Shown in pieces: positions 56,681 through 60,106 of a stretch of 64,000 bases of DNA. How positions within the stretch are numbered: position 1 is the stretch's first letter; each line of letters starts with the position of its first letter. This DNA is from Mesoflavibacter profundi (lineage in GTDB: Bacteria; Bacteroidota; Bacteroidia; Flavobacteriales; Flavobacteriaceae). Both the position numbers and the translations under genes were made by a program. Under the pieces are notes generated by a model. That model searched no databases. It was not told where the DNA came from and saw nothing but the letters and a program-made list of their open reading frames with translations. The stretch covers positions 2,523,501 through 2,587,500 of the forward strand of contig NZ_CP061703.1 in the NCBI RefSeq assembly GCF_014764305.1, written 5' to 3'.

Positions 56681-56684
56681 TAGG

Positions 56685-56692
56685 CAAAATTA
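56685..56692 (-). promoter_or_regulatory. -7 box right before the MFS gene
   Basis: On the minus strand, TAATTTTG (TAnnTTTG; 56692 down to 56685) ends 4 bases before the start codon. Used as a promoter, it would give a leaderless transcript. Confidence 0.4.
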
Positions 56693-56883
56693 GTAAACCA
56701 TAAAACGCTGGCATATTTTATAATGATAATAGAATGTTAATTTTTAAATCTAGTCTTTAGAATGAGGATGAAATAATTTCAATTTCCGAATCAAAAAAAT
56801 GAACTAAAAATTGAAATCTAGAATCTTTTTGATCAAAAAATCGACCGAAAAACAATTCGGTTTTAACCTTTTTTTAATAAAAT

Positions 56884-56952
56884 TTATACACATAAAATTG
56901 GCTTTTTCAGTAATAACAAGGGATAAGATATTGTTGATAATTATGTGGAAAA
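56884..56952. promoter_or_regulatory. Cluster of three DnaA-box-like sites upstream of nrdB
   Basis: TTATACACA on the plus strand (56884-56892) is a good match to the TTATnCACA box. Two one-mismatch boxes lie on the minus strand: TTATCAACA (56940 down to 56932) and TTTTCCACA (56952 down to 56944). They fall within 69 bases, 83 to 150 bases before nrdB. This fits DnaA control of nrdBA, or a piece of a replication origin. Confidence 0.5.
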
Positions 56953-57034
56953 ACTAAATGCATATTTTTAAAATCACTGGAATTAAAATCGCAATTTTAT
57001 AATTCCTTTTAAGACACAAAAATCAAATACCATT

Positions 57035-58309
57035 ATGCAAATTAATCACATTATTAAGCGCGATTTTACGACTGTGCCTTTTCAGCTCAGTAAAATCACA
57101 AACGCTGTCCTTAAAGCGATGACAGCTCTAGAACACGGGACTTTAGAAGATGCAGAGCGCGTATCTCAACTAGTACACGCTAGTCTTTTAAAACACAAAG
57201 AAAACGACCAAAACTATATTCCTACGGTAGAAGCTGTTCAAGATGCAGTAGAAAATGCCTTAATGGAAAGTCACTTTTTAGATGTTGCAAAAGCTTACAT
57301 TTTATATAGAGATGAGCAAGCAAGAAAACGTAAAAGTAACATCTTCGAAAAGCGTATAAATCTTAAACCTTACGAGTATCCACAATTATACGAATATGTA
57401 CCAGCAATTAGACATTCGTATTGGATACATACCGAGTTTAATTTTACAAGTGATATTCAAGATTTTAAAGCAGGATTAAATGAAGTAGAGCGTAGTGCGA
57501 TTAAAAATACAATGCTAGCCATTTCGCAAATAGAAGTTGCAGTAAAATCTTTTTGGGGCGATATTTACCATCGTATGCCAAAGCCAGAAATTGGATCTGT
57601 AGGAGCAACATTTGCAGAAAGTGAGGTAAGACATCACGATGCATATTCACATTTACTAGAAATTTTAGGTCTAAACAACGAATTTAAATCTTTAAAGAAA
57701 AAACCAGTAATAATGAAGCGTGTGCAGTATTTAGAAACTGCATTAAAAAATGCCAAAAGTGAAGACAACCAAGAATATGCGGAGTCTATTTTACTGTTCT
57801 CATTATTTATAGAACACGTGTCGCTATTCTCTCAATTCTTAATTATAATGGCATTTAACAAACACAAAAACGTGTTAAAAGGTATTTCTAACGTAGTAGA
57901 AGCGACTTCTAAAGAAGAGCAGATACACGGAGATTTTGGTATTGATTTAATTAAAATTATAAAAGACGAAAATCCAGATTGGTTTGATGCTAATTACGAA
58001 CAGATGATAAAAGATATGTGTCTAGAATCTTTTGAGTCTGAAAGCAAAATCGTTGATTGGATTTTTGAAAAAGGCGAAATAGACTTCTTACCAAAAGCAG
58101 TTGTAAACGAGTTTATTAAAAACAGATTTAATAACTCGTTAGAAAGTATTGGTATTGATAAAATATTTGAAGTAGACGAAAAGCTATTAGCAGAAACCGA
58201 ATGGTTTGACGATGAAATTATCGGTACCAAACATGGAGACTTTTTTGTAAAGCGCTCTATAAACTATAGTAAAAGAACCCAAAGTATAACCAGTGATGAC
58301 CTTTTTTAA
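57035..58309 (+). CDS. nrdB: Ribonucleotide reductase small subunit with N-terminal ATP-cone
   Basis: 424 residues, about 100 more than a standard NrdB. Residues 3 to about 98 form an ATP-cone (IIKRDFTTVPFQLSKI, later PTVEAVQDAVENALM), normally found on NrdA. The radical-generating part has metal ligands in E197-x-x-H200, the radical Tyr204, and the second E-x-x-H in KEEQIHGD. Equivalent E. coli residues are E115, H118 and Y122. Such an ATP-cone NrdB was described in Leeuwenhoekiella blandensis, where it controls activity through dATP-driven oligomerisation. It makes the cofactor for NrdA, encoded with no gap downstream. Confidence 0.95.
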   Translation: MQINHIIKRDFTTVPFQLSKITNAVLKAMTALEHGTLEDAERVSQLVHASLLKHKENDQNYIPTVEAVQDAVENALMESHFLDVAKAYILYRDEQARKRKSNIFEKRINLKPYEYPQLYEYVPAIRHSYWIHTEFNFTSDIQDFKAGLNEVERSAIKNTMLAISQIEVAVKSFWGDIYHRMPKPEIGSVGATFAESEVRHHDAYSHLLEILGLNNEFKSLKKKPVIMKRVQYLETALKNAKSEDNQEYAESILLFSLFIEHVSLFSQFLIIMAFNKHKNVLKGISNVVEATSKEEQIHGDFGIDLIKIIKDENPDWFDANYEQMIKDMCLESFESESKIVDWIFEKGEIDFLPKAVVNEFIKNRFNNSLESIGIDKIFEVDEKLLAETEWFDDEIIGTKHGDFFVKRSINYSKRTQSITSDDLF

Positions 58310-60106
58310 ATGATAGACCAAAACAAAAACATGACCCAGCAATCCCCAAATGAAGTAAAACAAACGGAAAAAAATCCTTTAATAGACGCAAGAAACAAGT
58401 CGCTACACCAAATCAATACAGCCAATTCTGGAGGTTTTGAGTGGTTAACAGAGCATAGTAGACAGTTCTTAGCAGCAGGATATTTAACCGAAGGTGTAAG
58501 CGCTGAAGAGCGTATAAGAGAAATAGCAGATAGAGCAGAGCAGATCTTAAAAATACCAGGATATTCAGATAAGTTTTACAACTACATGTCAGAAGGGTAT
58601 TTTTCTTTAGCATCTCCTGTTTGGTCAAACTTTGGTAAAGAACGAGGTTTACCAATTAGCTGTTTTGGATCTCATGTAGACGACGATATGGGTAACATAC
58701 TTTACTCACAATCGGAAGTTGGTATGATGTCAAAACTTGGTGGTGGTACTTCTGGTTACTTTGGTAAGATTAGACATCGTGGTTCTGAAGTAAAAAATAA
58801 TGGTTACGCTTCTGGAGCTGTACATATCATGCAGTTATTCGAGTCTATGGTAGATGTAGTAAGTCAAGGTTCTGTAAGACGTGGTCGTTTTTCTCCATAT
58901 TTACCAATAGAACATCCAGACATTAAAGAGTTCTTAGAAATTGGTACAGAAGGTAACCCAATACAAGAGTTAACTCATGGTGTAACGGTTACTAACCAAT
59001 GGATGCAAGAAATGGTAGATGGTGATGTAGAAAAAAGAACCATTTGGGCAAAAGTATTGCAACGTCGTGGAGAAATGGGTTATCCTTATATCTTCTTTAC
59101 AGATAATGCAAACAACAATGCAGCAGACGTATACCAAGATAAAAACTTACCAATTTACGCAAGTAATTTATGTACTGAAATCATGCTACCATCAAATGAT
59201 AATTGGTCGTTTGTATGTGTATTATCTTCTGTAAATGTATTACATTACGATAAGTGGAAAGACACAGATGCTGTAGAAACTATGGTCTACTTTTTAGATG
59301 CTGTAATTACAGAATTTGTTGAGAAATTAGAAGTATACAGAGATTCTCCAAATAGAGACGACAGACAAACGTTTTTATTCATGGAACGCGCGTATAACTT
59401 TGCAAAAGAAAACAGATCTTTAGGATTAGGTGTTTTAGGATGGCACTCTTTACTGCAATCTAAAATGTTACCATTTAACAGTCAAGAAGCCTTCAATTTA
59501 AATAGTGAAATCTTTAAAGTAATAAAAGAAAAATCTTATAAAGCATCAGAAGAATTAGCTGAAAAATTTGGAGAGCCAGAAGTATTAAAAGGTTACGGTA
59601 GACGTAATGCAACGTTAAATGCAATTGCACCAACAACTTCTTCAGCTTTTATCTTAGGTCAAGTATCACAAGGTATTGAGCCAATATGGTCTAATATTTA
59701 TGTGAAAGATATCGCAAAAATTAAAACGACTATAAAAAATTCTTACTTAGAGGATTTATTAGAATCTAAAGGACAAAATACAACTGAAGTTTGGAGAAGT
59801 ATTAGAGATAATGATGGATCTGTACAACATCTAGAATTCTTATCAGAATTAGAAAAAGATGTATTTAAAACGTATTCTGAAATTGATCAAATGGATATTA
59901 TTTATCAAGCGGCTAACCGCCAAAATCACATAGATCAAGGACAGTCAGTTAATATAATTGTGCATCCAGATATGCCAGTAAAGGATATAAACAAAATACA
60001 TGTTACAGCATGGCAATTAGGTTTAAAATCACTTTACTATCAGCATAGTATGAATGCTGCACAAAAATTTAAACAAAAGAAAGATTGTGCAAGCTGTGAA
60101 GCTTAA
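58310..60106 (+). CDS. nrdA: Ribonucleotide reductase large subunit without ATP-cone
   Basis: 598 residues, short for a class I NrdA because the N-terminal ATP-cone is missing (the first active-site Cys is C118, versus C225 in E. coli). Active-site residues are C118 (LPISCFG), N286-C288-E290 (NLCTE) and C303 (FVCVL). The C-terminal redox pair is C593/C596. It reduces ribonucleoside diphosphates using the NrdB radical. Its start codon directly abuts the nrdB stop. The cone having moved to NrdB fits the flavobacterial type. Confidence 0.96.
   Translation: MIDQNKNMTQQSPNEVKQTEKNPLIDARNKSLHQINTANSGGFEWLTEHSRQFLAAGYLTEGVSAEERIREIADRAEQILKIPGYSDKFYNYMSEGYFSLASPVWSNFGKERGLPISCFGSHVDDDMGNILYSQSEVGMMSKLGGGTSGYFGKIRHRGSEVKNNGYASGAVHIMQLFESMVDVVSQGSVRRGRFSPYLPIEHPDIKEFLEIGTEGNPIQELTHGVTVTNQWMQEMVDGDVEKRTIWAKVLQRRGEMGYPYIFFTDNANNNAADVYQDKNLPIYASNLCTEIMLPSNDNWSFVCVLSSVNVLHYDKWKDTDAVETMVYFLDAVITEFVEKLEVYRDSPNRDDRQTFLFMERAYNFAKENRSLGLGVLGWHSLLQSKMLPFNSQEAFNLNSEIFKVIKEKSYKASEELAEKFGEPEVLKGYGRRNATLNAIAPTTSSAFILGQVSQGIEPIWSNIYVKDIAKIKTTIKNSYLEDLLESKGQNTTEVWRSIRDNDGSVQHLEFLSELEKDVFKTYSEIDQMDIIYQAANRQNHIDQGQSVNIIVHPDMPVKDINKIHVTAWQLGLKSLYYQHSMNAAQKFKQKKDCASCEA

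Follow-up and report, generated by a model that had tools for sequence, protein, structure and literature searches.

The window analysed here is a 64,000-nucleotide stretch covering positions 2523501–2587500 of a flavobacterial genome of 3,088,198 bp in a single contig. The largest gap of the window (56681–57034; 354 bp, 77% AT) is flanked by an MFS transporter gene on the minus strand and by nrdB, whose product carries an ATP-cone (PF03477, 1.8e-19) and which is followed by nrdA next downstream, as the original prediction had it. The three DnaA-box-like 9-mers that it had placed in 56884–56952, inside this gap, were found exactly there. The features of the region are as follows.

56884–56892, plus strand: TTATACACA, the third box-like site, not conserved
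56932–56940, minus strand: box 1 of the conserved pair, TTATCAACA, which reads TGTTGATAA on the plus strand
56944–56952, minus strand: box 2 of the conserved pair, TTTTCCACA, in the same orientation as box 1 and separated from it by a 3-bp gap
56982–57001, plus strand: putative core promoter of nrdBA, a conserved block in the alignment footprint with a consensus of approximately AAAATNTGANTTTTAYA
57035–58309, plus strand: nrdB, 424 aa with the ATP-cone at the N-terminus, the gene proposed to be controlled
58310–60106, plus strand: nrdA, 598 aa without an ATP-cone, presumed to form an operon with nrdB

Boxes 1 and 2 each differ by one mismatch from the consensus TTATCCACA, which is that of E. 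coli. Single boxes are not enriched: the window contains 22 sites with at most one mismatch from TTATCCACA versus 19.5 expected. A triple within 69 bp occurs once in the window, any such triple appeared in 0 of 200 dinucleotide shuffles, and no second one was found across the 864 kb of the same genome that were scanned. The observation was confirmed, with one correction by conservation. The pair at 56932–56952 stood, whereas the box at 56884 is missing in the congener L004 and lies outside the alignment footprint described below, where the columns shown for it (56889–56892; 89 upstreams) are low in information. With these columns unconserved, it was rejected as a member of the element, and TTATACACA at this place is probably a chance occurrence.

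The conservation of the boxes upstream of nrdB in relatives, which had been named as a check on the prediction, was borne out for the pair. Upstream sequences of nrdB were taken from 149 family genomes (28 with a full-length ATP-cone protein) and from 80 loci on named genome contigs, these being the best 80 of 546. The 108 upstreams obtained were narrowed to 107 of at least 290 bp, and then to 89 by dropping those at least 85% alike; as the sequences are related, counts among them are not counts of independent events. A tandem minus-strand pair about 100–110 bp upstream of nrdB is conserved in Flavobacteriaceae. The pattern TGTTRATAA-N3-TGTKRANAA, with at most two mismatches and a start at −98 to −112 of the ATG, occurred in 60 of the 89 upstreams versus 0 of 1780 shuffles. 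When the pair was sought at −120 to −95 with a gap of 2 or 3 bp and one mismatch allowed, it was present in 72 of the 89 non-redundant upstreams (gap 3: 61; gap 2: 11), and the remaining ones had a pair elsewhere (5), a single TGTTRATAA (8), or neither (4). A scan of gaps from 0 to 12 bp returned 62 loci at 3 bp (rather than 61, owing to a slightly wider scan window), 11 at 2 bp, and none at 0, 1 or 4–12 bp. In the alignment footprint of the 89 upstreams, both 9-mers were conserved, with 1.1–2.1 bits per column over box 1, and the 3-bp gap and the flanks were not. Since the gap and the flanks diverge while the 9-mers stay, the pair appears to be under constraint. A chance origin of the pair was rejected by the shuffle controls and by the gap rule among relatives. 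In several relatives, box 2 is TTTTCCACA, a normal DnaA box.

The conserved block at 56982–57001 begins about 30 bp downstream of the box pair and is probably the core promoter of nrdBA, a role that we infer from its place in the footprint. We scored it with TANNTTTG, which we take to be the appropriate motif; between −75 and −15, this was perfect in 1 of the 89 upstreams, and had one mismatch in 45 and two mismatches in 43. As a separate observation, some upstreams of Muricauda-type nrdB genes have another double box, roughly 110 bp further from the gene than the first (6/89; L051, L058, L072, L074, L075 and L108).

In E. coli, DnaA was found by ChIP-seq to prefer boxes paired at a spacing of 2 or 3 bp, its binding is strongly lowered by one bp added between the boxes, and nrdA is a target carrying such a pair (PMC11317965, in excerpt). 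We confirmed the nrdA pair in MG1655, where it has a 12-bp period, as has the flavobacterial nrdB pair. In both cases, two tandem 9-mers with this period (a 3-bp gap) lie upstream of a class I RNR operon; at nrdB the boxes share one orientation and are, among relatives, separated by 2 or 3 bp only. The two systems differ in the strand of the boxes, which with respect to the gene is reversed in the flavobacterium, in the bases (TTATCAACA and TTTTCCACA here versus TTATCCACA and TTATGCACT in E. coli), and in the genes themselves, as here the order is nrdB–nrdA, the ATP-cone is on NrdB, and the family is without NrdR. The opposite orientation and the different bases would fit with convergence. The E. 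coli nrdAB genes are activated when high-affinity boxes are occupied at low DnaA-ATP, or by DnaA-ADP, and repressed when DnaA-ATP is high; regulation of RNR genes by DnaA has been proposed also in Bacillus subtilis and Caulobacter crescentus, that is, in other phyla but likewise with DnaA as a transcription factor for dNTP supply (PMC8203912, in excerpt). DnaA control of RNR is already known in E. coli, and the Bacteroidota case would be a variant of it with a shifted box in the opposite orientation. A review by Herrick and Sclavi from 2007 is said to deal with RNR and replication. In the open-access library searched, we found no paper describing Bacteroidota RNR genes as preceded by DnaA boxes, or TTATYAACA as a Bacteroidota DnaA box.

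The form of the box could be compared with that at the likely origin of the same genome. In sampled stretches, negative GC skew prevailed from about 2.83 Mb across the zero point up to about 1.25 Mb, and positive skew prevailed between 1.47 and 2.8 Mb, with sign switches near 1.25–1.47 Mb and near 2.8 Mb. The cumulative minimum was at 1.255 Mb in the contiguous stretch 1.19–1.61 Mb, which superseded a minimum at 1.466 Mb obtained from the stretch 1.43–1.59 Mb only; box clusters and tRNAs looked at within the latter yielded nothing useful. A gap of 709 bp and 81% AT (1236590–1237298, or 6590–7298 of L302), bordered by an rnr-like and an rpiB-like gene in divergent orientation, lies 18 kb away from the minimum at 1.255 Mb. 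It holds three perfect copies of TTATTAACA (TTATYAACA; shuffle mean 0.11, three reached in 0/300) and 13 sites with at most one mismatch from TTATYAACA (shuffle mean 2.9), making it the densest box cluster in the 1.064 Mb sampled. This gap is likely the oriC of the genome. The rRNA operons at 448 kb (minus strand) and 2.33 Mb (plus strand) point away from 1.24 Mb, which fits an origin lying between them.

The boxes of the likely oriC share with box 1 of nrdB an A at position 6, which is A in box 1 throughout the lineage and C in the E. coli consensus. It appears, from these sequences, that the DnaA box of the lineage has shifted to TTATYAACA, with A replacing C at this position. Of 20 contig starts, seven carried a DnaA signature, as did the genome under study; contigs of the neighbouring family f2 do not start at dnaA. 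The recognition helix reads RDHATVLHA in all eight Flavobacteriaceae DnaA proteins examined, that of the genome under study included, and rdhttvih in the solved DnaA 8btg_A, so that the Flavobacteriaceae have alanine for threonine. By the E. coli sequence and numbering, this alanine is presumably at position 435. The recognition helix has been described as reading the TnCACA half of the DnaA box, and E. coli DnaA T435M as defective in box binding (PMC5742627, a review, in excerpt). Our guess is that the helix alanine is linked to base 6 of the box; it could explain the shift at position 6, or else imply weaker binding.

Pairs of the same box were also present upstream of other replication genes. 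We searched 20 genomes for the pattern TGTTRATAA-N(1-14)-TGTKRADAA, with the reversed pattern as a control; the genomes were hand-picked and mostly complete, and some had already been seen with a pair, namely G032 and G262 with one at hup and several others with one at nrdB. The names hup, dnaB, fmt, accA, rnr, rpiB and folE are those read from translations. A total of 49 pairs were found versus 14 for the reversed pattern: 19 at hup, 9 at dnaB, 5 at nrdB and 16 elsewhere, the last being about the number from the control. The hup pair occurred once per genome in 19 of the 20 genomes. It lies in the stretch that separates hup (HU) from the fmt-like gene, at −129 to −147 relative to where HU starts, and the sequence between its boxes varies freely. 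In the whole genome under study there are four pairs, at hup (33843, L247), at dnaB (2319684, L262), at nrdB (2580432) and inside a folE-like gene (2867579), of which those at hup and dnaB have an 11-bp gap and are family-conserved. As the gaps are 11–12 bp at hup and dnaB versus 2–3 bp at nrdB, binding at the former may differ. TTATYAACA was on the coding strand closely upstream of dnaB in 30 of 31 loci, these being the 30 best from the 146 genomes in which a match was found, together with the genome under study, and skewed to relatives of G032. There was no box pair upstream of the dnaA gene of this genome, and in that respect no sign of autoregulation. With the same box in the likely oriC and pairs at hup and dnaB, nrdBA would join a small replication regulon. 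Apart from these, a box-like pair between aminotransferase and TPR-protein genes (L169, L171, L180) is conserved in G078, G012 and G114 and degenerate in the genome under study (2150964).

Control by NrdR and NrdR boxes is also transcriptional control of RNR, but NrdR (TIGR00244) is missing in 149 of 149 family genomes, the one under study included, while 9 of 14 control genomes were positive. A search of 56681–57034 for an NrdR-box-like palindrome, using what we take to be the NrdR box motif, gave no match within three mismatches. With neither the gene in the family nor a box match in the gap, NrdR boxes were rejected as the element. The L. blandensis NrdAi/NrdBi enzyme has an ATP-cone NrdB of the same family, with allosteric dATP control on NrdB; in contrast to the control considered here, that work concerns enzyme allostery, and the word DnaA is absent from its main text (PMC5794259).

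The DnaA control of nrdBA raised in the original prediction is supported by these comparisons: the conserved pair, the 2-or-3-bp rule, the box in the likely oriC, hup and dnaB. We consider it probable that 56932–56952 is a DnaA double box that controls nrdBA transcription and ties dNTP supply to replication initiation. Two DnaA protomers would bind the pair side by side, with the probable core promoter beginning some 30 bp further downstream, and free or ATP-bound DnaA would set the transcription of the nrdBA ribonucleotide reductase, through which the supply of dNTPs would be coupled to initiation. Because NrdR is absent, DnaA could provide the transcriptional layer for RNR, above the dATP inhibition that acts through the NrdB ATP-cone. 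The sequences and their conservation, the spacing rule, the pairs and boxes at other loci and the skew were observed directly; DnaA as the binder of the pair, and its cooperative binding, are what we infer; activation of nrdBA at low DnaA is indicated more weakly, and is favoured over steric repression because the pair sits upstream of the probable core promoter. Several observations count against DnaA: the A at position 6 departs from the E. coli consensus; the gaps of 11–12 bp at hup and dnaB are outside the E. coli 2-or-3-bp rule; there is no pair upstream of the dnaA gene of the genome under study; of the 89 upstreams, eight retain a single box, five have the pair elsewhere and four have neither; and 5 of 16 loci from other lineages of NrdB or from more distant relatives (L185–L189) are without a strict box. 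A wider proposal, towards which the balance tilts modestly, is that there is a family-wide DnaA regulon (nrdBA, dnaB and hup) acting via TTATYAACA with a changed helix residue. DnaA would then replace NrdR as the sensor linking the supply of RNR, helicase and HU to initiation, and the 2-or-3-bp rule known from E. coli would hold in a phylum far removed from it, where the boxes are turned to the other strand.

The foremost alternative, which we regard as unlikely, is a DNA-binding protein other than DnaA that would read the TGTTGATAA-type pair and regulate nrdB, dnaB and hup together. It would suit the deviation from the E. coli consensus at a usually fixed base, the unlike gaps at nrdB (2–3 bp) and at hup and dnaB (11–12 bp), and a dnaA upstream without a box pair. 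However, the same 9-mer is concentrated in the likely oriC, the 2-or-3-bp rule is that of DnaA and the targets are replication genes, and the second nrdB box is, in several relatives, the normal DnaA box TTTTCCACA. Still less probable is a role of the pair in DnaA titration or nucleotide switching, as a locus of the datA/DARS kind, its position at nrdB being incidental to transcription. DARS1 and DARS2 of E. coli carry double boxes too (PMC11317965, in excerpt), and the second pair about 110 bp further up in 6 of the 89 upstreams would be at home in such a locus, but the distance of the pair from the start of nrdB, and from the conserved block resembling a promoter, is fixed, and the remaining pairs likewise lie upstream of genes. 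The third reading, that the region upstream of nrdB is part of oriC, for which an AT-rich gap with several boxes and a dnaA not adjoining dnaN had spoken, is practically negligible and was rejected by the skew, which changes sign near 1.25–1.47 Mb and 2.8 Mb and has its minimum elsewhere (about 1.25 Mb, sampled stretches), by the rRNA orientation, and by the better candidate at 1.237 Mb. In boxes, nrdB has one pair and one unconserved box, and the candidate has 13 near-matches. At 2.58 Mb, nrdB lies 1.34 Mb from this likely oriC, and its pair is thus not oriC; the skew maximum is nearer, at a distance of about 0.25 Mb. The separation of dnaA from dnaN carries little weight as a hint of an origin here and is normal for the phylum, as oriC is commonly far from dnaA in Bacteroidetes according to a Prevotella paper (PMC4755523, in excerpt).

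If the DnaA double box at nrdBA is real, DnaA control of dNTP synthesis would extend to Bacteroidota, the way in which paired boxes are spaced would prove to be a deep-rooted property of DnaA rather than a peculiarity of E. coli, and there would be a possible answer to the question of what controls the transcription of RNR genes in genomes lacking NrdR. Moreover, the Flavobacteriaceae would gain a testable DnaA box and a candidate oriC. Kept in this flavobacterium and in most of its relatives, the pair suggests that DNA supply is linked to the onset of chromosome replication, which had previously not been demonstrated for this phylum.

A strict box match was missing in five (L185–L189) of the 16 loci just mentioned. 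In what we guess to be a Flavobacterium-like genus, with an NrdB of a second type lacking the ATP-cone, each of five loci had three to four TTATYAACA in a stretch of 320 bp; upstream of these short NrdB proteins (L190–L194), the boxes are in one orientation and mostly about 45–68 bp apart. A cobalamin riboswitch (RF00174) precedes class I nrdB in two loci: in L016 (1181–1369) it stands in place of boxes, and in L195 (1242–1386) TTATACACA is the sole strict box. TTTTCCACA is present in three loci of a neighbouring family, two of which have TTATCCACA too. In two genomes of a neighbouring family, TTATCCACA is clustered, with five copies in about 170 bp and ten strict or near ones in about 1 kb (L202, L203), and these clusters are possibly oriC or titration loci.
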